Assembly: GCA_030765065.1 (NCBI GenBank) | Contig: CM060977.1 | Location: forward strand, 96,427,795-96,491,794 | Direction: 5' to 3' | Source of the DNA: Deroplatys truncata | Taxonomy: Eukaryota > Arthropoda > Insecta > Mantodea > Mantidae | DNA: 64,000 nt | Part shown: in pieces, positions 6,325 to 54,028 of the stretch | How positions within the stretch are numbered: position 1 is the first letter of the stretch | Layout of the letters: each line of letters opens with the position of its first letter | The notes under the pieces: model-generated | The model's database searches: none | Told to the model about the DNA's origin: nothing | Seen by the model: only the letters and a program-made list of their open reading frames with translations | Made by a program: the position numbers and the translations under genes

Positions 6325-7902
6325 GCATTATACATTTCGTTATAGATAGCAAGAGAGTAGCGATAGTCAAATGTTTAAGACTGAACGCTATATGCTGGCC
6401 TTAAAATTACATACTTTCCATGAAATCGTGAGAAACCACTTCAAATGGACGGGACACTAAAAAAATAAAAACGTATTGCACGATTCAAACTATTTATAAC
6501 GGATATTTTAGAAATGGTTTATGCAACCTAAAAAGGTATTTGAAATAAATTGTGTGTTTAAAGAAATCTACATTTTTACTTTTTTTACTACATATGTAGT
6601 AGGTAGAGAAGCTGTGGAATACAATAACTTCTCTACATTGCATTCTCTAGTATTGCATCCACTAAAATATTCGATACCGAGATTTCGCCGGAAATACGTT
6701 TTTTGAGGCACCGTGAATCCAAAAAGAAAAACATTTTTAGAAAAGGTCGCCTGTGTGTGTGCACGCGCGTGGGTCTGAAGAGTATAACTCAAAGCTAAAA
6801 TTCGGATAAATGCTACACTTCAGTACCTTCCAAACATATGACATGAAGATTTTCAAGAAAATCCCCCAAACCCAACTACCCTTTACATGGAACGATTTTC
6901 GAAAATTCTGACTTTTTAAAAAAATTGCTCTAACGATTTTGATTAAAATATCGTATATTAAACATATTTACATGACAAATAAAATGTATGTCTTGAATTT
7001 TCTTGGGAACAGTCCTCTTCATTCGGAAGCAGTTTTGTATAATCTTATATAACTGGTAAACGTTAAGCGATAGACGAAAACGTAGCATACAAAAAATGTG
7101 GATCTCCTTAAAACACACAATTTACTTCAAATAAGCTTTTCTGTAGCATAATTCATTTCTGATATATCTTTTGTTAAAAGTTCGAATTGTCCAATTGTCA
7201 TTCTTTTAAAGTCTCATCGATTTTCAGTTGTTTCTCGCGAATACATGGAATCAGTAGGAAATATAAGGCCGGTCTATATCGTTCAGTTCTTAAACATTTG
7301 ACTATCGGCGTTCTGTTTGCGTCTATATCGAAATATATAGCTATTTTTGCAAACGTTTATTTGGATATAAAAGTAGTAGATATAAAAATAAGTTCTATTA
7401 AGAATAGTATATATACCCATTAATCCAGATGAAAGTAGAAAATGTTATGTGAATATATTACGTCACATTTTTTGTGTAGTGCGTTTAATCTTTACCAGTT
7501 ACAAACGCTTATATAAAACCCCTTCCGAAAGAAGAGGACTTCACAGGCTATTCCCTGAAAATTCAAGATATACATGTTATTTTTAATGTAAACCTATTTA
7601 ATATATGGTGTTTTAATCAAAATCGTTATATCCATTTTGAGGCAATCATAAATTTAAAAACTGTTTCATGTAAGGGTAGTTGAAGGTGAGAGGATTCTTT
7701 TGAACATTTTCGTGAACAATATTTGGAACATATCTATCTAATCGTTTTTTTTAGTTATGTTGTTCACACACACGCACACACTCAAACACACACACACACA
7801 CACGTAACCTTTTTCTAAGTATGCCTAGTTTGAGTGCAGAGGTCCCAAAACATATATTTCCGTAAAGTATCGACATCGAATTACTGGGTGGAATACAATT
7901 AA
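6325..7902 (-). mobile_element. R1-Y outer copy, split by an inner R1
   Basis: The Y right half in reverse occupies 6325-6577 and stops inside GAAATCTACATTTTT. The same copy resumes at 7468 with TTTTTTGTGTAGTGCG and continues through the microsatellite (about 7767-7802) to GGGTGGAATACAATT. The whole interval 6578-7467 is a later R1 insertion. The right terminus of the outer copy is missing. Confidence 0.8.
6578..7467 (+). mobile_element. R1-Y inner copy nested in another R1
   Basis: Begins ACTTTTTTTACTACATATG and ends ATTACGTCACA. It carries GTGTGTGTGCACGCGCG as its microsatellite and the Y right half. It is bordered by five T on the left and six T on the right, inside the ATTTTTT run of the outer copy. 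The identical arrangement occurs at 36224-37139. Confidence 0.8.
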
Positions 7903-9319: not shown

Positions 9320-10495
9320 AAAAAAGAAAGAAAAAATATATAATATGTGTGAAGAAGCAATAATTACAATTGTGCATTTGCACGACTGTTTCGTTTCCAA
9401 TAACCTTACAGAAATGATGCTCTGTCTGCACGGCAGCACCTGTAGTGCCATTATTTGCTGTGTTGCAGTCATAATTGCTCATAAAAACTGCACGAGGAAG
9501 CTAGGGTATTAATTATCTTCATAATACAAATCAAAGTTTCATTAATATTTCAGAGCAGTGAATTGTGGTATTTCGTGTTGGTAATAAAAAAGAGTCGGTA
9601 AAACAAGGCAAATTAAATTCCCAACCCTGTATTAAAGCGGGAAGCTTACTTTATCGTAACACTCTCATAAACAGCCCGATATTATGCTGGAAAGGCAATA
9701 AAAAGAACCCTTGGTCCCAATGTTTGTTGGATACTGCTCATGCGCCGAAGAGAACGACCTGAGAGACGATGTTGCATAATTCATGTGACTTCTACATCTA
9801 GGGAAGTCAGAGGAACCCGTTGGGTTAGAAAATAGGTAAGGAAAGAAAGCGTCAAAATGATGAAATATTTATGACTTCATCTTAATCCGTTTATCTTGTA
9901 ACCATGTGATAGGAAGGGAAGGTGTGAGAAAGGAAAAACTGCGGTAGTCATAGCCATGCTGTTCTGAAGGAATCCGTTTCCTTCCTTTTCTTACTCGTAT
10001 TCAGTCTCAACTTTGCAGATGTCCTAAGCGTTTCCTTACGTCATCGCCATTCTGTGGTTCCTGATTTCCGTATTTTCCTTTTTACGTTATCCGCCTTCTA
10101 TCTATAGTAGATAACTGGAAGTATTGTATCTAGGAATCGACCTGGATACTTTTCTATACTTTTAAGTGTTTAAGTTTGGCATTATTGAAAGTTGTTGCCT
10201 TTAACTTTATGCTAGAGAAGGAGAGAAATGAGTCGAGGACTTCACATTATTGCCTCACACGTGTCCCCAAAGATTTGACGGACTGTAGTTGTTGATAGAC
10301 CTTGACTGCGTTTCCTGTGGGTGAATCAATACAACATTTCATAGACTCTTGTGTCTAATGAAAACATGTAAAGTAATGGGGGAAGGAATAGAGATACTCC
10401 TGTGGCGTTGAGCTGTGAATGAAGCTGATTCAGCTGATATACTAAATCACGTTTCTCCAATAGCAAGGCTTGGTGACTCACTCTCAGACATTATT
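9320..10495. other. No gene seen
   Basis: No supported gene. The reading frames at 9245-9472 and 9565-9762 are short, lack recognisable motifs and have no start context. Confidence 0.4.
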
Positions 10496-11361
10496 ACTTT
10501 CTCTACTACGTATAGTAAGTAGGGGAAGTATTGCATTCCACCCAAAAATTCGATACCGAGATTTCACCGGAAATACATGTTTTGAGACCTCCTGAATCCA
10601 AAAAAAGCATTTTTGGAAACATGTCCGTGTGTGTGTCTGTGTGTGTGTCTGTGTGTGTGTGTCTGTGTGTGTGTGTTTGTGAACAGCATAACTCAAAAAC
10701 TAACAGTCGGATAAACACCAAACTTGGTATTTACGTTCAGTATCTTCCAGAGATGCGACACGAAGATTTTCAAGAAAATCCCCCCACCCCAGACTGCCCT
10801 TTACATGGAACATTTTTCGAAAATTTTAATTTTCTCAAAAATGGCTCTAACGATTTTGATGAAAGTATCATATGTTTAAGATAATGTCATGAGAAGTGAA
10901 ATGTATATCTGGAAATTTCTGGGAATGTCTCCAAAAGTATTCTTCATTATGCACGACTTTTGCATAACTGGCAAACCATAAGAGATAGACAAAATGTTAC
11001 TACACAAAAAATGTAGATCGCGTTAAAATACACAACTTATATCACATACATTTTTTTTGTTGAGTTACCGTTTTCGAGATATTGCTTGTTATTTCCTTAA
11101 ATTTTCCAATACTTATACTTTTTCTCAAATTCGTTATTCATTTTTTTATGTCCTGGAGAATGGAATGCGCCACATAGCAACCAGCGATAAAATATTTGAC
11201 TATCGCTTAAAAACTACCATATTCCCCTTGCATCTACAAGAAAATTACAAATAAGATTGACATCTCGATATCTCGATTAATATGAAGCATATGGAGAATA
11301 GGCATTTGTAAAAATAGATTGTACAAGAGTAGAGAAAGTCATGTGAGTGTAACACATCAGA
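10496..11361 (+). mobile_element. R1-X, full length (type copy)
   Basis: The best complete X copy. It has ACTTTCTCTACTACGTATAG at the left, ATTCCACCCAAAAATTCGA, TTTCACCGGAAATACATG, then a GTGTGTCT-rich microsatellite at 10626-10679 and GAACAGCATAACTCAAAAAC. AACGATTTTGATGAAAGTATC follows, then the X right half (AGAGATAGACAAAATG, GTCCTGGAGAATGGAATGCG, CCCCTTGCATCTACAAG). The right end is GTAGAGAAAGTCATGTGAGTG with AACACATCAGA. The 11-bp inverted repeat ACTTTCTCTAC/GTAGAGAAAGT is flush on the left but 22 bp from the right end. The Val/Cys-rich frame at 10531-10884 is a translation of the microsatellite, not a gene. Confidence 0.9.
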
Positions 11362-12039: not shown

Positions 12040-13240
12040 TCTTTAGTCCATCATGCATTTTAACACCGTTGTTATTTATGCATGGTGGGTCATAACAAAT
12101 TCATATTGCTTTATTTTTCTAAACCATTTTTCTCTTACTCTCACCATATATTCTCCTATTCTTTTTATGTCCCTCTCCTTTTGTATTTTCATTATCCTAA
12201 CTTTTAATACTTATTTGTTAACATTCTCCCATTCTTTAGATAAAAACTGATCTCTCCACAACTTATTTTCTTCACATTCAGTTACATAATGCATATCATT
12301 ATCTGCCTCTTCACAAAGAGAACACCTATACAAATTCGCTCCATTCCTATCTCCCCTTAGCCTATATGCACCACATCTAGACCGGACCCACCCTTCTCTC
12401 ACTAACCTATTACCTACATCCAAATAAATCTTCCTTCCCCAGTCCACCTATTAATTGTCTATATAGTTCCAAACTTTTCTTTCCTTTCAAACTTTGAAAT
12501 AATTCTTGTTTCAGTTCATCCCAGCACTGGATTTTTCTTGTATTATTAAACATTGCCTCAAGATATTATGCTCATCCAATGATTTCAATCTATGCCAATA
12601 TTTAAGTATCGTTTCCACTATCATGCCTTTGCTACCTACTCTTCCCAACTCCAGCATTGCTGCTCCATTAGTTGATGAAATAGATAAACGATCTATGTAC
12701 TTTATCAATCATCTCCTATCCTTTGTCACTTCCCCAAATCTCTGATCCATAGACCAATTTTGCTTCAACTACAGCTTTTAAAACCCTTTGCAACCATTTA
12801 ATTTGTATATCTGGTATTTTCTTTAAGAATATTCTTATAGCAGTCATTGCTAATCTTCCCTTAGCTAAGGCACTTATCTTGTGATCATTCTCTCTCCCAT
12901 TACTACTTATTCTCACTACCAAGTAAACAAACTTGTTTACTATTTGCAGCTCTTCCCCTTCCACATACAACTTTTCCTCCTTCTTCAATTTATAGCTCTT
13001 TTTAAATACCATTATCTTTGACTTTTTAAAATTTATTCTTAAACCCCATTTCTTACAAAATGAATATATGATATGTAACACTTTTGTTAGACCTCCTACT
13101 GAAATAAAACCTACCACTAAATCATCTGCAAAAAGTAATCCTGGAATTTCTCTATAATTTACTGTGGGTAAATATGTTAGCCTTATTCAACTCTTCCAAT
13201 ATATCGTCAATAAGTAGCTTACAGGATTGTAAGTCGCTAT
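12040..13240 (-). pseudogene. Non-LTR retrotransposon (LINE) fragment: RT C-terminal half plus Cys-rich tail
   Basis: Minus-strand translation shows the reverse transcriptase catalytic motif LLFADDLVV near 13105-13145. Then follow the thumb-region segments SFCKKWGLRINFKKSKIMVF and FVYLVVRIS (12716-13117), KYWHRLKSLDEHNILRQCL (12511-12708), and a C-terminal finger-like motif CSLCEEADNDMHYVTEC (12211-12447). In LINEs the FADD Asp pair is the polymerase active site and the Cys/His motif lies after the RT. The pieces lie in different frames with stops between them. The 5' part with endonuclease is missing (5' truncation), as expected for LINE insertion. A related tail is at 62971-63861. Clade not assigned. 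Confidence 0.8.
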
Positions 13241-19155: not shown

Positions 19156-20023
19156 ACTTTCTCTACTACGTATAGCCAGTAGGGGAACTATTGTATTCCA
19201 CCCAAAAATTCGATACCGAGATTTCACTGGAAATATATGTTTTGAAAACCCCTGAGTCCAAAAAAAACATTTTTGAAAACATGTCCGTGTGTATATCTGT
19301 GTCTGTATGTGTATGTGTGTATGTGTGTGTGTGTGTCTCTGTGTGTGTGTCCGTGAACAGCATAACTCAGAAACGAAGAGTCGGATAAACACCAAACTTG
19401 CTATTTACGTTCGTATCTTCCTGAGATGCGACACGAAGGTTTTCAAGAAAATTCTCCCATCCCAGATTACCCTTTACATGGAACACTTCCGAAAATTTTA
19501 ATTTTCTCAAAAATGGATCCAACGATTTTGATTAAAATATCATACGTTTAAGATATTTTCATGACAAATGAAATGTATATCTCGAATTCTCTGGGAATGT
19601 CTCCAAAAGTATTCTTCATTGTGAACGACTTTTGTATAACTGGTAAACCGTAAGAGATAGACAAAATCTTACTACACCAAACATGTAGATCGCGTTAAAA
19701 TACACAATTTATGTCATACACATGTTTGTGAGTTAACCATTTTCGAGGTCTTGCTTGCTATTCCCTTAAATTTTCCAGTACTTTTTCTGAAATCGGAACT
19801 CGTTATTAACTTTTTTATGTCCTGAACATACAAAGAGAATGGAATGCGCCACATAGCAACCAGCTCTTAAAAGATTTGACTATCGCTTAAATACTACCAT
19901 ATTCCCCTTGCACCTACAAGAAAATTGGCAATAAGATTAACATCTCAATTAACATGAAGCATATGGAGAATAAGCGTTTGTAAAAATAGTTTGTTCGAGT
20001 AGAGAAGGTCATGTGAGTGTAAC
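19156..20023 (+). mobile_element. R1-X, full length
   Basis: Begins ACTTTCTCTACTACGTATAG and ends AGTAGAGAAGGTCATGTGAG, TGTAAC. Very close to the 10496 copy throughout, with a long GTGT/CTGT microsatellite at 19285-19352. The near-identity suggests fairly recent activity of subfamily X. Confidence 0.85.
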
Positions 20024-20108
20024 AAAATGAATATCTTGAATTTTCTGGGAATAGCCTATCAAGTCCTTTTCATTGGGAAGCAAGTTTTTAAAATCTTGTA
20101 TAACTAGT

Positions 20109-21470: not shown

Positions 21471-21692
21471 TGCTACTTTCTCTACCACGTATAGTAGGTA
21501 GAGAAAGTACTAAATTCCGCCCAAAAATTCTATACCGAGATTTAACCGGAAATACATGTTTTGAGAACCTTTGAATCCAAAAACACATTTTTAGAAAAAT
21601 CTCCGTGTATGTGTCTGTGTGTATGTCTGTGAACAGCATAACTGAAAAACGAAGAGCTAGATAAATACCAAACTTGGTAATTGAGGCAAATA

Positions 21693-22897
21693 CACCATGT
21701 GATCAAAATTACCAGGACACCCCCACAAACATAGGTTTTTCATCTTAGGTACATTGGGCTGCCACCTACTGCGCCTGGTACTCATTATACGAGACCTCAG
21801 TAGTCATTAGACATCGTGAAACAGCAAAATGGGACGCTCCGTGGATCTCACGAACTTTGAACGTGGTCAGATGATTGGGTGTCACTTGTGTCAGAAGTCT
21901 GTACGCAAGATTTCCACACTTCTAAACATCCCAAGGTCCATTGTTTCTAATATGATAGTGAAGTGGAAACGTGAAGGGACATGTACAGCACAAAAAGCGT
22001 ACAGGCCGATCTCGTCTGTTGACTGACAGGGACCGCCGACATTTGAAGAGGGCCGTAAAGAGTAATAGGCAGACATCTATCCAGACCATCACACAGAAAT
22101 TCCAAACTGCATCAGAATCCACTCCAAGTACTATGACAGTTAGTCGTGAGGTGAGAAACCTTGGATTCCATGGTCGAGCGGCTGCTCATAAGGAAAATGC
22201 CAAAATGCTTCGCTTCGCTTGATGTAAGGAGCGTCAACATTGCACTATTGAACAGTGGCAAAACGCTGTGTGGAGTGAGAATCACGGTACACAATGTGGC
22301 AGGAAGTGTGCATGGCGAATGTCCGGCGAACGTCATATGCCAGCGTGTGAACTGCCAACAGTGAAATTATGGTGTGGTCGTGTTTTTCCTGGAGGGGGCT
22401 TGCACCCCATGTTGTTTTTCGTAGCACGATCACAGCGCAGATCTACATTGATATTTTAAGCACCTTCTCGCTTCCCACTGTTGAAGAGCAATTCGGGGAT
22501 GGCTATTGCATCTTTGAACACGATCGAGTACCTGTTCATCCTGCACGGGCTGTGGCGGAGTGGTTACACGACAATAACATCCCTGTAATAGACTGGCCTG
22601 CACAGAGTCCTGACTTAAATCTTATAGAACACTTTTGGGATGTTTTAGAACGCCGACTTCGTGCCAGGTCTCACCGACCTATACCTCTCCTCAGTTCCGC
22701 ACTCCGTGAAGAATGGCCTGCCATTCCCCAAGAAACCTTCCAACACCTGATTGAAAGTATGTCTGCGAGATTGAACGCTGTCATCAAGGCTAAGGGTGGG
22801 CCAACGCCATATTGACTTCCAGCATTACCGATGGAGGGCGCCACGAACTTATACGTCATTTTCAGCCTGCTGTCCGGATACATTTGATCACGTAGTG
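21693..22897 (+). mobile_element. Tc1-family transposon with TIRs and TA duplication
   Basis: Left end CACCATGTGATCAAAATTAC and right end complement CACTACGTGATCAAATGTAT form terminal inverted repeats of about 26 bp. TA is duplicated at 21691-21692 and 22898-22899, as in Tc1/mariner transposition. Total length 1205 bp, typical of the family. The TIRs have diverged at several positions and the transposase is broken, so the copy is an old, inactive one. It lies inside an R1-Y copy, so it is younger than that copy. Confidence 0.9.
21829..22815 (+). pseudogene. Tc1 transposase, frame-shifted
   Basis: MGRSVDLTNFERGQMIGCHL opens the paired-like HTH DNA-binding domain (21829-22000). The frame then changes and continues with TDRDRRHLKRAVKSNRQTS. 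A stop follows MLRFA, and another frame change near 22365 leads into the catalytic half (VWSCFSWRGLAPHVV to GGPTPY). In that half, EHDRVPVHPARAV holds the second catalytic Asp and SPDLNLIEHFW the final Glu (DD34E family). The first catalytic site reads VWSENHG instead of the family VWSDES, so the first Asp is lost. About 340 codons when whole. The product would cut and paste the element at TA sites; this copy cannot. Confidence 0.85.
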
Positions 22898-28860: not shown

Positions 28861-29723
28861 TTTTATCCTACCACCTGCATAGTAGATAGAGAAGGAATTG
28901 CATTCCATCCAAAATTTCGATACCAATATTTCACCGGAAGTACTTGTTTTAAGGCCCCTATAAATCCAAACAGTCATCTTTAGAAAATGTTCCGTTGTGT
29001 GTGTATGAACAGCATAACTCTAAAACGAAAAGCAGAATAAATACCAAAATTGGTATTAAGGTTCAGTATCATCGATAGATCCGACATAACGGTTCTCAAA
29101 AAACCCCACCCCTATCTAACCTTTATATGGATAATTTTAGTTTTTATTTTCTGAAAAATGCCCCTAATGATTTTGATTAAAACACCATATACTAAAGATG
29201 TTTACATCACAAATAAAACTTATACGAATCTCTTGAGTTTTGTAGGAATAGCTTGCAAAGGTCTCTTCAGTTGGATGCAATTTTATACATGCTTGTGAAA
29301 CTGGTAAACATTGCATGATAGATGTTAACGTACTACGCAGAAAATGTAAGTCTTTTTATAACACTGTTTGTTTCAAACACGTTTTCTTGTTGAATAAGCC
29401 ATTTCTGAAATATCTGTTATTAATGGTTTTCATTTTTCAATACTTTGTCGTTCCATTAAACTCCTTTTGAAATTCAGTTGTTTCTCGCGATGTCATGGAA
29501 ACAGTATGGAATTTTAAAGCCAGCATATAGCATCCAGTTCTTAAACATTTGATCATTGCTGTTCTCTTTGTATCCATAACGCAATGTGTAATGTAGCTAT
29601 TTCTGCAAACGTTTATGTCAATTAAAATGAAACACACAGAAAAATATACTTTTGTAAGAATAATTTGTACTTCCACTAATAAATGTTAGAGTAGAGGAAG
29701 TTATTTAAATGTAACGCATCAGA
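28861..29723 (+). mobile_element. R1-Y, near full length
   Basis: From CTACCACCTGCATAGTAG through TTTCACCGGAAGTACTTG, GTGTGTGTATGAACAGCA and the Y right half to GAGTAGAGGAAGTTATTTAA and GTAACGCATCAGA. The microsatellite is short here. Confidence 0.8.
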
Positions 29724-30904
29724 TTTTTTTAAATACGCATGTATTTTTCTTTTATTGCATAACGAAAGTCTGTGAGATCATTCACAGTATTGAGTAAAAA
29801 TGTGTGGGAATAAAATATTGTTTGTTTGTAAATCACATGACAAAAATTTATAAATACGTAATAGTACGACTCTTACAAATATGAAAATGTTCACATGTCG
29901 AAGAACCTTTGAGATGAGAGTAAAAGTAAGGGGGAGGGGAGAGAGCAAGATCGAGGGAAATACAGCCTATCATTTGGTTTGGTTGTAAAAAGAACTGAGG
30001 GCCAGGAATAACCAGCGATTCTAAAGCGGAGACTGCTTCTGGCAATAATCGATTATTTTATCATTAGTTTTGCGCATATGCCAAATCGACTGCCCTATCG
30101 GCCATTAGCGGCGCCTGGCGACAAGCAGGTGAATTATATTAAATAAATGATGCGACACATCCACAGAGTTTAATGCAGGCAATATTCAAGTCCCAAGCAT
30201 AACCCCATCCATCGCAATTCCATTCATAATGAAACTGTTCGGGGAAGCTTTTTAGAATACATGTCTTTGGTTTCTATCTCCTATGTTGCGTCAGAATGCA
30301 CGCGTACGTCTATTATATATGTGACAGCATTCCACTGCACCGCGAAACCTCAGAATTTTGGAAATTCAAGTCACAGCCCGGATAATTAACAGTTTGTGGC
30401 ACATTATGATTATTATTGTTGCTATTGCGAGTATTTATTTTAGATTTGGAATGAGCCCATGTATGGCTACGCAAAGTACTCGAAGAGTTTCTTTGCTTTC
30501 CTTTGAATCAATAGTTCGATGTTTCCTTTCTCTCGTCTGTCCATTCCTTTCCATTTTTTTTCTGTTCTTCTGTTTGTCCTGCTCAACTTGCCACGTACGC
30601 ACTTTGGTTCTAAGGATATCTCCGTTTAGCATATTTTATTTTGTCATTTTTTACTGTACCAATCCTTTTCATAGTGACGACGTTTTGTGCTTTACTTGTA
30701 TTTTCGTTGAATTCCATTATTTGCTTTGTGAACCTGATTGATTTCATTGTTTTAATATGTCCATAACATTTTAACGTATTGTTTATGTCACTGTGAATGC
30801 CTTTATTTATTTATTTATTTTTCTCTTTTGTGTCGGTATTGCCCACCTATGATTTGTGGACCTAAAATTGTTCTTAGCACTTTGCATTCTTTTACTTTCA
30901 CTGT
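29724..30904. other. No gene seen
   Basis: The 127-codon frame at 30358-30741 is Cys/Phe-rich low-complexity sequence from a pyrimidine-rich tract and has no motif. I do not call it a gene. Confidence 0.4.
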
Positions 30905-35680: not shown

Positions 35681-35854
35681 TAAGTAATTTCTGAGTATTC
35701 ATTTGGCATCGCTACAGATGGAATAATGTAGGGATTTCGCTAGATTAAAACATCTCAGAGCATTAAATGATATAGATTTCGCTGTTAATATCTCTCTGAA
35801 GTGTGAATGAAGTAATTAATAAATGCTTACTGTAGAAGAAACCCCAACAAAAAA

Positions 35855-37606
35855 TCTGGTGTGTTACCTCACATGACGTTATCTACTCTTGTACAAACTA
35901 TTTTTACAGACGCTTATTCTGCATATGCTTCATGTTAATCGAAATATCCAGATGTTAATCTTATTGCTAATTTTCTTGTAGATGCAAGGGGAATTGGTAG
36001 GCTTTAAGCGATAGTCAAACACGTTAAGAGCTGGTTGCTATATCGAGTATTCCATTCTCTTTGCATTACCAGAACAAAACAAAATGAAAAACGAATTCCC
36101 ATTTCAGAAAAAGTATAAGTGTTGGAAAATTTAAGGGAGTAACAAACAATGTCTCAAAAATGGTTCACTCAACAAAAAATAAATATGACATTAATTGTGT
36201 ATTTTAACGCGATCTACATTTTTAATTTCTCTACTACGTATAGTAAGTAGGGGAAGTATTGTATTCCAACCAAAATTTCGATACCAAGATTTCACCGGAA
36301 ATACATGTTTTGAGACCCACTGAATCCAAAAAAGCATTTTTGGAAACATGTCCGTGTGTGTGTCTGTGTGTCTGTCTGTGTGTATCTGTGTGTGTGTGTG
36401 TGTGTGTGCAGCATAACTCCGAAACGAACAGTCGGATAAACACCAAACTTGGTATTTATGTTCAGTATCTTCCAAGGATGCGACACGAAGGTTTTCAAGA
36501 AAATCCCCCCACCCCAGAGTACCCATTACATGGAAGATTTTTCGAAAATTTTAATTTTCTCAAAAATGGCTCAAACGATTTTGATTAAAATGTCATATGT
36601 TTAAGATATTTTTATGACAAATGGAATTTATATCTTGAATTTCCTGGGAATATCTCCAAAAGTATTCTTTATTGTGAACGACCTTTGCATAACTGGTAAA
36701 CCATAAGAGATAGACAAAATTTAACTACACAAAAAGTGTAGATCGCGTTAAAATACACAATTTATGTCATATACATTATGTCATAACCATTTTCGAGATA
36801 TTACTTGTTATTCCCTTAAATTTTTCAATACTTATTTTCTCAAATGGGAATTCGTTATTCATTTTTTTTGTCTTGGATATACAAAGAGTATTAATCTGTG
36901 GCATAGGGAATGGTGCTGCACCTAGCAACCAGCTATTAAGAGATATGTATGTGCTTAAAGGCTACTGTATTTCTATATTGCCCTTGTAAATATATATTCC
37001 CCTTATATCTACAAGAAAATTAGCAATAAGATAGTCTGCAAATGTTTATCTCGATTAACATTAAGTAGATGGAGAATAAGCGTTTGTAAAAATAGTTTGT
37101 ACAACAGTAAAGAAAGTCATGTGAGTGTAACACATCAGATTTTTTGTGTAGTAACATTTTGTCTATCTCTTATGGTTTACCAGTTCACAATGAAGAATAT
37201 ATTTGGAGACATTCCCAGAAAATTCATGATATACAGCTTATTTGTCAAAAGAATATCTTAAATATATGATATTTTAATCAAAATCGTCAGAGCCATTTTT
37301 GAGAAAATTAAAATTTTCGAAAAATGTTCCATTTAAGGGGTAATCTGGTGTAGGTGGATTTTCTTGAAAACGTTCGTGTCGCATCTCTGGAAGATACTGA
37401 ACCTAAATAGCAAGTTTGGTGTTTATCCGGCTGTTCGTTTCTGAGTTATGCTGTACAGACACACAGGAACAAACCGACATCTTCCCAAAAATACTTGTTT
37501 TGGATTCAGGAGGCCTCAAACCATATATTTCCGATGAAATCTCGGTATGAAATTTTTGGGTGGAATACAATACTTCCCCTACTTACTATACATAGTAAGG
37601 AAAAGT
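35855..37606 (-). mobile_element. R1-X outer copy, split by an inner R1-X
   Basis: The right end TCTGGTGTGTTACCTCACAT starts it. The X block runs to ACGCGATCTACATTTTT at 36223, and the copy resumes at 37140 with TTTTTTGTGTAGTAACATTTTG and reaches TACTATACATAGTAAGG at 37606. Both ends are present, so this is a full-length copy interrupted by one insertion. Confidence 0.85.
36224..37139 (+). mobile_element. R1-X inner copy nested in R1-X
   Basis: AATTTCTCTACTACGTATAG to GTAACACATCAGA. It has a long CTGT/GT microsatellite at 36353-36408 and an additional ~65-bp X variant near 36900-37000 (CTGTATTTCTATATTGCCC). Five T on the left and six T on the right, the same junction as the copy at 6578-7467. 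Confidence 0.85.
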
Positions 37607-48246: not shown

Positions 48247-49916
48247 CCTTCTATACTCCGTATTTACAGTAAGTAGAGGCAGTATTGTATTCCATCCTAA
48301 AGTTCGATGTCAACATTTTGGAAATACACGTTTTGAAGTTCACTGAAACAAAAAAGAAGTTTTAGAAATAGCTCCATAAGTGTTTAAACATCATAAATAA
48401 AAAACAAAAAATCGGTAATACCACCATTTATGTTTAAATTTTGAACTTAAAAGAATACGAAAAAGCATTATGAACAATCCCAGCCCCACAATAAACTCCA
48501 CTTTACATGGAATATTTGTGGAAGTTTTAAATGTTTACTTTCTCTACTACGTATAGCAAGTAGGGAAAATTTCGATACCGAGATTTCAATGGAAATATAT
48601 GCTTTTAGGTGCCCTGAATCCAAATAAAGCATTTTTGGAAACAACTCTTTGTGTCTGTCTTTGAACAGTATAATTCAAAAACGAAAAGTCTGTCAAACAA
48701 ACTTGGTATTTGAGTTTAGTATCTTCCAAAAAGGCTACACAAAGCCAAGAAAATCCCCATCCCACACTACCGGTTCCATGGAACATTTTTAGTCAATTCT
48801 GATTTTCTCAAAAACGGCTATAACGATTTAGATTAAAACATAAATATTTTAATACTAAACACTGAAGCATATTAAATATGTTTAAGATATTCTCATGGCA
48901 AATGAAATGTACATTCTGAATTTTTTGGGAATGTTCCCAAAGTCCTCTTCATTCTGAGTGACTTTCGCATAACTGATAAACGTAAGGCATAGACAAAATG
49001 TTACTACACAAAAAATGTTGATCTTATTAAAACCCACATTTTATGTCACTTTTTGCCCAGTGAACTATTTCCAAGATATTCCTTATTATTTGTTGGAATT
49101 GTCCAATATACTTTTTCTCAAAAGGGTATTCGTTATTCGTTTTTTTTTATGTCCTGGACATGCAAAGAGAATGGAATGCTTCACATAGTAACCGGAACTT
49201 AAAAGATCTAACTATCCCTTAACGCCGGTCATATTCCCCTTGCACCTACAAGAAAGTTGGCAATAAACATTTATCTCGATTAACATGAAATAGTTGGAGA
49301 ATAAGCGTTTGTAGAAATAGTCTTACAAGAGTACAGCATGTGAGTGCGACACATGAAATGTTTTAAAAAATTGTTCTAAGAATTTTGATAAAATACCATA
49401 TATTAAAAATATTTAAATAATAAAATGTATATCTTGATCTTTCTGGGAATAGCCTCTGAAATCCTCTTCATTCTGAAGAATTTTTTATCATGCTGTATAA
49501 CTGCTAAACGTTAAGCCATAGACAAATACGTACTACACAAAAAATATAGACTGCTTTAGAGCACACAATTTAATTGAAATAGCTTTATTGTTACACAGCA
49601 ATTCCGGTATACTCGTTATTAATGGTTCGAATCGTTCAATACCTTCTCATTCCTTTTAAGTCCTGTCGATTTTTACCTGTTTCTCGCGATTGCATGTAAA
49701 GAGTATGGAATTTTAAGGTCAGGTTAAAACGTCCAGGTCTTCAGATTTGGCTATGGCGTTTCCCTTTGTATCTATAACGAAATGTGTATGTAGCTGTTTC
49801 TGAAAAAAATCAATTAAAGTGAAGTAGTAGGAAAATAAACTTTCGTAAAAGTAATTTGTCTGCTCACTAATAAGCGTGGTAGTGTAAAGGAAGTCATGTG
49901 AATGTAAAACATCACA
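48247..49916 (+). mobile_element. R1-Y outer copy, split by an R1-X
   Basis: The left part 48247-48536 (ATTCCATCCTAAAGTTCGA to GAAGTTTTAAATGTTT) and right part 49359-49916 (TTTTAAAAAATTGTTCTAAG to AAGTCATGTGAATGTAAAAC, ATCACA) are collinear. Confidence 0.8.
48537..49358 (+). mobile_element. R1-X inner copy
   Basis: ACTTTCTCTACTACGTATAG to GAGTGCGACACATGAAA. It is inserted in the T-run of the outer copy's GATTTTTTAAAAATGGC motif, a different internal T-run from the one used at 6578 and 36224. Confidence 0.8.
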
Positions 49917-50384
49917 TTTGTAGAAAAAGATCCGTGCGTATATAAATCTATGTGTCCGTGAACAGCATAGCTCCAAAACAAAAGGTTGGTTAAATATGAA
50001 ACCTTGCATTTAAATTCATAACCTTCCAGGGATGCAACACAGGGAAATATAACACCCCAAACTATTTTCTCAAAAATGGCACCAAATATTTTGATTAAAA
50101 TAAGATTAAGCTATTTTCAATATGAAGTAAGTCTAGAATTTTCTCGGAGCCTCTGAAGTCCTGTTTCTGTACCGATTTTATATACTTGGTAAGTCGTAAG
50201 GGATGGACAAAATCGTATTTCACAAAAAATGAAGATCACGTCAAAGCGTATTAGTTTAGACGCAAAAAAAATTATTTGCAGCATTAACCATATCTGAGAT
50301 GCCCTTTGCTTTTGGTTTGACCTTTCAGATAATTTATAGTTTAAATGCTGCAAATAGCTACTCTATACTTCTCTCTCTCTCTCT

Positions 50385-50929: not shown

Positions 50930-51688
50930 TAAACATTTGCACAAATTATCTTATTGTTAATATCCTTTTAGGTGTAAGGGTAATACGGTAAACTTTAAGC
51001 GACATTCAAATCTTTTAAGAGCTGGTTGCTATGTGGAGCATTCCATTTTTTTGTATGTCCAGAACATAAAAAAAAACGAATAACGAATTCCCATTTGAGA
51101 AAAAGTGTAAGTATTGGAAAATTCAAACAAATAATAAGGAATATTTCGGAAATGGTACACTCGACAAAACATATATATGACATAATTTGTGTGTTTTAAT
51201 GAGATCTGTATATTTTTTACAGTAAAATTTTGTCAATACTTACAGTTTGCCGGTTATGTGAAGGTTATTCAGAATGAAGAGTACATTTGGGGAAATTCCC
51301 AGAAAATTCAAGATATACGTTTTATTTGTGATGAAAACGTCTCAAACAGGTGATATTTGAATCGAAAACGTTAGAATCACTTTGGAAAAGTCAAAGTTTC
51401 ATGAAATGTTTCATAAAAAGCGTAAGCTGTGGTGAAAGGATTTTCTTGAAAATTTTCGTGTCGCATCTTTGAAAGATACGGAACCCAAGTAACAAATTTG
51501 GAACTTATCCGAGACCGTTTTTGAGTTAATGCTGTTCACAGAGACACAGACACACAAACATACACTCGGACCTTTTTCTAATAAATACTTTTTTTTTCAG
51601 GAGTCCTCAAAACATGTATTTCCGGTGAAATCTCAGTACTGAATTTTTGGGTGGAATGTAATACTTCTGTTTAGTATAAATAGAAGAG
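50930..51688 (-). mobile_element. R1-X, right terminus missing
   Basis: AAGAGCTGGTTGCTATGTGG to GTTTAGTATAAATAGAAGAG. The (CA)n part and TTTTTTTTTCAGGAGTCCTC are near 51540-51605. Confidence 0.8.
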
Positions 51689-51690
51689 AA

Positions 51691-52399
51691 AGTAAAGTAA
51701 CCTGATGTGCTTCACTCACATGACTTTCTCTGTTCTTGTATATAGTATTCTTACAAACGTTTATTCTTCATCTACTTCATGTTAATCGAGATAAACATTT
51801 GCAGAACCTACCTTATTGCTAATTTTCTTGTAGGTGCAAGCGAAATATGGTAGGCTTTAAGCGATACTCAAATCTTTTAAGAGCAGGTTGCTATGTGGAG
51901 CATTCCATTCTCTTTGTACATCCAGGACATAAAAGAAAGCATAACAAATTATCATTTGAGAAAAAATTCAAACAAATAACGAGAAATTTCTCGGAAATCG
52001 TTCACTCCACAAATAATGTATACGACATAAGTTGGTGTATTAACGCGCAATACATTTTTTGTGTAGAAAAACTTTGTCTATCTCTTATGGTGTACCAGTT
52101 ATGCAAAATACCATGTCCTTTTAGGGACATTCCCAGAGAATTCAAGATATACATTTTATTTGTCATGAACGTATCTTAAATATATGATACTTTTATCAAA
52201 ATCTTCATACCACATCTTTGAATACTGAAGCTAAACACCAGGTTTGGTATTTATTCAACTGTTAATTTCTGAGTTATGCTGTTCACAGACACACAAACAC
52301 ACACACGGACATGTTTCCAAAGTACTTTTTTTGGATTCAGGAGGCCACAAAAGATACATTTATGGTGAAATCTCGGTATCTAATTTTTTGGTGGAATGC
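51691..52399 (-). mobile_element. R1-X ending in a poly-A run
   Basis: Starts CCTGATGTGCTTCACTCACA. It ends at TTTTTTGGTGGAATGC, where the last ~45 bp of R1 are replaced by 25 A. Confidence 0.8.
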
Positions 52400-52424
52400 A
52401 AAAAAAAAAAAAAAAAAAAAAAAA
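52400..52424. repeat. 25-A homopolymer at an R1/R1 junction
   Basis: An uninterrupted A-run between two same-orientation R1-X copies; the next copy starts directly after it (TCTCATGTGTTGCACTCACA). Confidence 0.9.
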
Positions 52425-52657
52425 TCTCATGTGTTGCACTCACATAACTTTCCCTACTCTTGTACAAACTATTTTTACAAACGCTTATTTTCCATCTACT
52501 TCATATTAATCGAGATAAACATTTGCAAACTCTATCTTATTGCCAATTTCCTTGTAGGTACATGGGGAATATGGTAGGTTTTAAGCGATAGTCAAATCTT
52601 TTAAGAACTGGTTGCTATGTGGAGCATTACGTTCTGTTTGTATGTTCAGGACATAAA
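52425..52657 (-). repeat. R1-X right-half fragment
   Basis: TCTCATGTGTTGCACTCACA to TGTATGTTCAGGACATAAAA, then an abrupt switch to the opposite orientation. Confidence 0.8.
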
Positions 52658-53275
52658 AACATAAAGCATTTTTGGAAACATGTCCTTGCGTATGCCTTGT
52701 GTGTCTGTGTTGTGTCTGTCCGTGAACAGCATAAAAACGAAAAGTCGGATAAACAAATTGGTATTTAGGTTTAATATGTTCCAGGGATGCGACATAAAAG
52801 TTTTCAAGAAAATCCCCCACCCCAAAATCACCCCTTACATGGAACATTTTTCGAAAGTTTTTATTTTCTCAAAAACGGCAGTAACGATTTTGATTAAAGT
52901 ATCCTATGTTTAAGATATTTTTATGGCAAATAATACTATAGCTTGAATTTTCTGGGGATGTCCTCTTCATTCTGAACGACTTTTGCATAACTGGTAAACC
53001 GCAAGAGATAGACAAAATTTTACTACAAAAAATGTAGATTCCGTTAAAATACACAATATATGTCATAAACATTTTGTTTTGTAAAACAAACCATTTTCTA
53101 GATACTCCTTGTTATTTCTTTAAACTTTCTGATACTTACACTTCTTCTCAACTGAGAATTCGTTGTTCTTCTTTATGTTCTTGACATGCAAAGAGAATTA
53201 CATTTTACACATAGCGACCAGTTCTAAAAATATTTGACTATCGCTTAAGGCCTACTATGTTCCCCTTGTTTTGTA
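52658..53275 (+). mobile_element. R1-X, both ends missing
   Basis: AGCATTTTTGGAAACATGTC through GTGTCTGTCCGTGAACAGC to GGCCTACTATGTTCCCCTTG. Forms an inverted pair with the following copy. Confidence 0.8.
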
Positions 53276-53289
53276 TTTGCAAGGGCAAT

Positions 53290-54028
53290 ATAGAAATACA
53301 TTAGCGTTTAAGCATAGACATATATCTTAATAGCTGGTTGCTATGTGCAGCACCATTCTCTTTGCCACAGATTAATACTCTTAGCATACCCAAGACAAAA
53401 AAAATGAATAACGAATTCCCATTTTAGAAAAAGTGTAAGTTTTGGAAAATTTAAGGGAATAACAAGCAATATCTCGAAAATGGTTCACTGAAAAAAAAAA
53501 TGTATATGCAATAAGTTGTGCATTTTAATGCGATCTACATTTTTTGTATAGTAAAATGCTGTCTATCTCTTATGGTTTACCAGTTATACAAAAGTCGTTC
53601 ACAATGAAGAATATTTTTGGAGACATTCTCAGAAAATTCGAGATATACATTTCATTTGTCATGAAAATATCTTAAACATATGATGTTTTAATCAAAATCG
53701 TTAGAGCCATTTTTAAGAAAATTAAAATTTTCGAAAAATGTTCCATGTAAGGAGTAATCTGGGGTAGGGGAGTTTCTTGAAAACCTTCGTGTCGCATCTC
53801 TGGAAGATACTGAATCTAAATACCACGTTTGGTGTTTATCCGACTGTTCGTTTCTGAGTTATGCTGTTCATAGGCACAGACACACAAACACACACGGACA
53901 TGTTTCCAAATTTTTGGGGGGATTCAAGGGGTCTCAAAACATGTATTTCCGGTGAAATATTGGTATCAAAGTTTTGGGTGGAATACAATACTTCCCCTAC
54001 TTACTATACGTAGTATTCAAAGTAAAAA
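53290..54028 (-). mobile_element. R1-X, right terminus missing
   Basis: From AGCTGGTTGCTATGTGCAGC to TACTATACGTAGTATTCAAAG, i.e. complete at the R1 left end. The shared variant segment CCACAGATTAATACTC is also present in the 36224 copy, pointing to a common source. Confidence 0.8.

Follow-up and report, generated by a model that had tools for sequence, protein, structure and literature searches.

The window, by which we mean the whole stretch of 64,000 nucleotides of Deroplatys truncata DNA that was analysed, is dominated by a single repeat, R1, which the first-pass annotation had noticed as dozens of related copies. Motif counts, blastn and a profile search of the window all bear out that this repeat is real. 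The left motif, ACTTTCTCTAC, occurs 26 times at no more than one mismatch (10 of these exact) against 1.31 expected, and none of 100 shuffles attained 26. With the copy at 10496-11361 as query, blastn found 47 local matches, itself included, while a profile built from five window copies found 52 matches at E <= 1e-3. The profile matches cover 23,514 of the 64,000 bp (36.7%); 21 of them reach the 5' end, 19 the 3' end and five both. The reversed window gave five profile matches, all in the microsatellite part of the model. The main copies are as follows.

6578..7468, plus strand: older R1 copy nested in minus-strand R1 6359-7899, with T5 on its left and T6 on its right
10496..11361, plus strand: R1 reference copy, very probably a HINE (non-autonomous Helentron); blastn, profile
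19156..20024, plus strand: R1 copy within an older R1 fragment, final bases eroded; blastn, profile
28868..29728, plus strand: diverged R1 copy in which the profile reaches both ends
35850..37606, minus strand: host R1 copy split by 36224-37139; profile
36224..37139, plus strand: R1 copy nested in minus-strand R1 35850-37606, with T5 on its left and T6 on its right
48537..49363, plus strand: R1 copy nested in R1 48248-49917, with TGTTT on both sides, one possible duplication
51701..52401, minus strand: R1 copy in a head-to-tail chain with R1 pieces 50945-51693 and 52420-54023

The copies at 6578 and 36224 occupy the identical internal insertion site of their host R1. Between 52418 and 54023, the profile aligned R1 pieces 1-762, inverted 754-106 and then 640-877, a fold-back within one copy. 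Two other remnants lie in the window: a DDE_3 transposase (22351-22815, 7.3e-12) and a reverse transcriptase (12716-13186), whose RVT_1 match of 1.8e-6 is just under the curated cut-off.

R1 had been described by a left motif, a microsatellite, a right motif and a foldable terminus, and all four are found in the reference copy, whose parts are these.

10491..10495, plus strand: probable 5' terminal T5, TTATT in this copy, which would belong to the element
10496..10506, plus strand: 5' subterminal inverted repeat ACTTTCTCTAC; motif count
10519..10529, plus strand: inverted arm GTAGGGGAAGT, counterpart of the 'IR' of DINE-1; sequence
10627..10681, plus strand: GT microsatellite
11329..11339, plus strand: 3' subterminal inverted repeat GTAGAGAAAGT
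11341..11357, plus strand: 3' terminal stem-loop ATGTG-7 nt-CACAT, followed by CAGA to the end at 11361

The GTAGGGGAAGT arm, passed over in the first-pass annotation, is a third, inverted copy of the motif, 12 bp inward of the left one, and it would allow the 5' end of R1 to fold into a hairpin with the subterminal repeat. ViennaRNA gave this hairpin -4.7 in the reference copy and -11.2 in the copy at 21475, which has perfect arms. In PMC4067079 this arrangement bears the name 'IR' of DINE-1. On the right side, the 11-bp GTAGAGAAAGT sits exactly 22 bp before the end at 11361, and R1 has the inverted repeats expected of a HINE, at least 11 bp long and set off from the 3' end. A 3' palindrome is likewise present: the arms in the reference copy are ATGTG (11341-11345) and CACAT (11353-11357), and 88 of 105 stem positions are paired across 21 3' ends in the window. 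Among these 21 ends no double compensatory change was found, the variants being wobbles or breaks. The consensus ends of R1 are TTTTTACTTT at 5' and CATCAGA before a T-run at 3'. Of the ends first proposed for the reference copy, the right one (11361) is correct, with CATCAGA followed by a T-rich flank; the left one probably lies at 10491 instead, because the five bases preceding ACTTTC appear to be owned by the element. The reference copy has one frame of at least 120 aa (121 aa), which matches no Pfam family, as expected of an element without coding capacity. The middle part of R1 may resemble Drosophila INE-1.

How far does R1 extend beyond the window? In the assembly of 4.29 Gb (818 contigs), counted on both strands, the exact motif ACTTTCTCTAC occurs 668,437 times (4,701 for the reversed control), the exact 20-bp R1 5' end 173,596 times, and the exact 38-bp 3' end with five Ts 98,329 times, with reversed controls of zero for both ends. 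The R1 family has well over 100,000 copies in this genome and is often nested in itself. R1 made up 17.3% of 20 kb sampled, a small sample of ten stretches of 2 kb each, taken at round-number positions from nine contigs, with matches in five of the ten stretches and none in the reversed control; the window is richer (37%) than this genome sample. The exact 3'-end pattern had no match in collections of viral contigs and genome contigs, and a text search of a collection of papers returned no match to four R1 sequence strings.

Some genomic settings of R1 deserve separate mention. What might be taken for a dense R1 cluster on contig C1 (19,012-120,899; L001-L034) was rejected as such: it is a 3.4-kb tandem repeat carrying one R1 per unit. 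The compared units are about 98% identical, the R1 insertion having been swept along in the satellite, and all but one unit (L009) were excluded from the copy statistics. Among the matches listed, R1 5' ends also recur as inverted pairs with a spacing of about 4-10 kb (C1 near 8.18, 13.84, 22.03, 26.13 and 32.88 Mb; also L142 and L144), and the outer arms of the pair at C1 13.83-13.84 Mb are inverted copies, 99.5% identical over 428 bp. By eye, one young R1 lies within an apparent coding region of another mobile or virus-like element (L036) and another within an apparent retrotransposon coding region (L037).

The borders of R1 are best followed in 41 full copies from outside the window, which have distinct flanks. 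Exact ends were the basis of their selection, and they tend to be young, diverging by 1.5-9.5% from their consensus. Window copies, the duplicates L040 and L047 and the loci lacking an end (L039, L041, L044, L050, L054, L057, L061, L063, L070, L079-L088, L090, L094, L096) were left out; for several loci among L079-L088, L090, L094 and L096 only the flanks had been retrieved. Thirty-one copies have a left T-run of exactly five and five copies a run of six; in another five the run is interrupted (three with TTATT, one each with TTGTT and CCATT). The right T-run is at least five in 39 of the 41, a figure biased by the way most copies were selected: L035-L038, L056-L058 and L059-L098 were drawn from exact 3' ends followed by five Ts, so that right-run lengths in this set (L035-L038, L056-L098) are skewed. 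The 10 full copies from L042-L055, chosen by two exact 11-mers, have a left run of exactly five in seven cases and a right run of at least five in nine. Genome-wide, exactly five Ts precede 100,260 of the 173,596 exact 5' ends (57.8%), and six or more precede 32,541 (18.7%). The base before the T-run, among the matches listed, is C in 18 cases, G in nine and A in all others.

T-only flanks alone cannot tell Ts borne by the element from a duplication of five Ts. The first-pass annotation had called for a comparison of filled with empty sites, and where R1 has inserted into R1 the empty state is known. At L069 a host run of T5 became T5-R1-T5; at window sites 36224 and 6578 a host run of T6 (T6 in most unfilled copies) became T5-R1-T6; and at L058 a host run of T7 became T5-R1-T7, where the right side may not be the original host because two R1 tails come after it. 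Host runs of five, six and seven thus gave 5-R1-5, 5-R1-6 and 5-R1-7, and only five Ts were gained. No 8-bp target duplication of the hAT type is seen at L069, L058 or the two window sites. Moreover, in none of the seven copies (of the 41) with a non-T5 5-mer on either side does the left 5-mer equal the right one. Since an interrupted left 5-mer has no counterpart on the right, the five Ts would appear to be the element's own 5' terminus, and the simplest explanation is that this terminus reads TTTTTACTTTCTCTAC. The old window copy at 48537, outside the 41, has TGTTT on both sides, which argues against element-owned Ts; it is the exception to an otherwise T-rich insertion without target duplication.

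The first-pass annotation had correctly reported that no Rep/helicase partner lies in the window (tblastn of the Helentron protein described here gave no match at E 1e-3), and had proposed a search for one with the R1 terminus. Such an element is present elsewhere in the same genome. Among 152 PF14214 matches in the genome, 18 of those listed have open frames above 2000 aa. The best-scoring matches are mostly interrupted by stops; eight of 12 fetched loci (L099-L110) carry RGLPHAH, a pattern not found in the other four. A second class, at E of about 1e-26, holds most of the 18 long frames. Its members, by their predicted proteins, are autonomous Helentrons; they measure about 10 kb, and their intact ORFs encode 2324-2345 aa. 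Two of them, C5 and C9, with proteins of 2324 and 2345 aa, were read end to end: they are 99.2% identical over 7 kb and part directly after GTAGAGAAAGTTATGTGAATGTAACACATCAGA (CATCAGA) plus its T-run. Their final 38 bp are 94.7% identical to those of R1, and the region upstream of the coding part matches R1 positions 2-657 at 93%; the likeness does not extend beyond the 5' ~650-720 bp and these final 38 bp. In further copies the 3' windows end at the same place in eight of eight, and the R1 5' end is present in six of seven read on the 5' side; the seventh 5' window (L135, on C8) fell inside the Helentron and shows a whole R1 inserted in its 5' part. An autonomous Helentron sharing the ends of R1 therefore exists in this genome and, given the shared 5' part and 3' end, R1 is most simply a deletion derivative of it.

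The predicted Helentron protein begins with a viral-tegument-like deubiquitinase (Herpes_teg_N, 1.2e-8), followed by DUF6570, Rep (Helitron_like_N, 1.2e-27), a PIF1 helicase (1.9e-28) and a C-terminal AP endonuclease. Rep (HUH) and a PIF1-type helicase are thus joined in one protein (PF14214 and PF05970), the helicase also matches Helraiser 7lcc (1.4e-22), and RVEFQMRGSPHEH and YIIKYISK are visible by eye. The endonuclease was matched in the C-terminal 230 aa (PF14529 Exo_endo_phos_2, 1.8e-6, 28.2 bits at a cut-off of 27.4); with the whole protein the match is weak (Exo_endo_phos, 0.057), and this piece found no PDB relative (best 0.39). The Rep motif reads RGSPHEH, and the S at this position is diagnostic of Helentrons according to PMC4067079; the Helentron class within the Rep/helicase elements is assigned here from this S-versus-L residue rather than from a tree. 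The domain order, the C-terminal PF14529 endonuclease and the S in RGSPHEH are all as in autonomous Helentrons. Deubiquitinase domains in Helentrons have been described before, with an Asp-x-His motif named for the VTD deubiquitinase (PMC9741609). Like the VTD-containing Helentrons of that account, the partner of R1 combines a Herpes_teg_N deubiquitinase with an AP endonuclease and shows the motif, here DPH; unlike them, it has a single such predicted domain. Residues ~300-600 of the protein from L113 (630-7601) form a run of charged repeats of about 21 residues (63 bp), and frame lengths differ between copies (2324, 2345 and 2408 aa).

Could R1 instead be a MITE-like derivative of a cut-and-paste TIR transposon, bordered by a 5-bp TTTTT or an 8-bp hAT-like duplication? 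The T-runs on both sides, the gain of exactly five Ts at nested sites and the TGTTT on either side of window copy 48537 are what such an element might leave. Against this stand the absence of matching 5-mers in all seven copies with non-T5 flanks and a left run that stays at five when the host run is five, six or seven. In addition, the repeats are placed unequally, 0-5 bp inside the left end and 22 bp inside the right one, and the coding partner with the same ends has Rep, helicase and endonuclease and no DDE transposase. A TIR origin is accordingly very unlikely. T-runs at the borders could also be read as the reverse complement of a poly-A tail, which would make R1 a SINE-like retroposon, and the window does contain the reverse transcriptase remnant at 12716-13186. 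Yet the left run is usually five Ts while the right run at nested sites is simply the run of the host, the window has no Rfam match at gathering scores, and the ends of R1 are common to a DNA element encoding Rep and helicase. Precise ends in the 41 copies say little on this point, because the copies were chosen for intact ends. We consider retroposition exceedingly improbable.

Considering that RGLPHAH elements, by their motif a separate population of canonical-type Helitrons, coexist in this genome, and that most R1 insertions among the matches listed fall between A and T, a derivative of a canonical Helitron might be proposed. Canonical Helitrons have 5' TC and 3' CTRR ends. R1 has neither, and its ends match the RGSPHEH, endonuclease-bearing class, so that this origin is barely conceivable. 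None of the outcomes that the first-pass annotation had named as fatal to a Helentron-like class (consistent 8-bp duplications, a transposase-coding relative with the same ends, retroposition) has come to light, and the coding partner with the same ends and the filled and empty sites both support its assignment of R1 to that class.

We therefore regard R1 as a HINE, a protein-less derivative of about 860 bp, with a consensus of 862 bp, of an autonomous Helentron in the same genome, with a probability of roughly 0.95. This reading draws on sequence, namely the shared ends, the intact coding partner and its domains, filled and empty sites, composites and copy number. R1 has every HINE/Helentron feature tested, a set to which neither a Rep tree nor the DINE-1 core belongs. 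R1 resembles the HINE/DINE-1 elements (INE-1, DNAREP1) described in PMC4067079 in its subterminal inverted repeats, the inverted arm near the 5' repeat, the microsatellite, the 3' palindrome, a T-rich target with no clear target modification, a partner sharing its ends and a high copy number; the likeness is one of description, not of DINE-1 sequence. R1 differs from the same account in having exactly five Ts at 58% of exact 5' ends, where the number of Ts is given as variable, in a 3' repeat that lies closer to the end, at 22 bp (against 38-60 bp in the mite families described there), and in a dominant self-insertion site. The class is a known one; less usual are its scale, a number of terminal Ts that is mostly five, and one dominant site of self-insertion.

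How might R1 move? The protein of the Helentron, with its deubiquitinase, Rep, PIF1 helicase and AP endonuclease, would act on the ends that R1 shares with it. The T-rich 5' junction would be nicked, and helicase action would peel off a single strand until halted by the 3' hairpin plus CATCAGA. The endonuclease would nick a T-run to receive this strand, in most cases where a non-T base, chiefly A, is followed by at least five Ts, with no target bases duplicated and five Ts gained. The family may also be active at present. Since any 5' and any 3' end carried by the strand could be used, nesting would be expected to yield composites with extra 5' modules or 3' tails.

Such composites are indeed frequent, and many trace to one place. 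The junction of CGTTATTCA, T5 and the R1 5' end, at consensus position ~626, has 13,671 exact occurrences genome-wide; a junction of equal length at the antisense internal site used by both window nestings has 276. These are raw junction counts, not divided by host copies. Composites that were mobilised whole must account for part of the ~626 excess, which therefore does not give the number of independent insertions. Unfilled exact copies of the ~626 site number 26,648. At least seven of the 41 full copies (L038, L053, L056, L058, L059, L062, L074) directly precede a further R1 3' tail that starts at the ~626 site, and L059 has three such tails in a row. The host body is present on the left in L058 and L062, with only its final bases recognisable in L074, while the left flank does not match the R1 body in L038, L053, L056 and L059, as expected if the strand overran the inner 3' end and continued as far as the outer. 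The opposite case is L064, where a full R1 follows the host body and the ~60 bp read beyond it contain no tail. At the other end, two 5' ends are stacked, R1 1-630 ahead of the element's own, in seven of nine Helentrons read on the 5' side: both end-to-end copies and five of the remaining seven. This sets them apart from the usual autonomous Helentron. Because the two end-to-end copies differ in their outer flanks, the two-headed Helentron has moved as one unit.

A precedent is the composite Helitron2 FoHeli of Fusarium, for which it was proposed that an element inserts into its own kind and that the outermost 5' end is then used together with the first 3' end (PMC5148889). The R1/Helentron composites are like FoHeli in their duplicated 5' termini; unlike what that text describes, they arise at one recurrent insertion point, are frequent and carry up to three extra 3' tails. 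One possible synthesis, which we put forward tentatively and with somewhat less than even confidence, is that R1 copies serve as landing pads for R1 and its Helentron, with CGTTATTCA^TTTTTTT as the preferred target, and that, once elements are stacked, rolling-circle use of any 5' end upstream and any 3' end downstream sets modular composites free, among them an autonomous form with two 5' ends that would itself be the amplifying lineage.

A dominant and previously unclassified repeat can now be assigned to a transposon family with a coding partner, in a very large genome. Variable terminal Ts, self-insertion and tandem composites have been loosely described traits of Helentrons, and here they are measurable on more than 100,000 copies; the counts suggest a terminus that as a rule carries five Ts, not a number set by random cutting. 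If R1 copies do act as landing pads, such self-targeting would spare genes and would also drive expansion in this 4.3-Gb genome.
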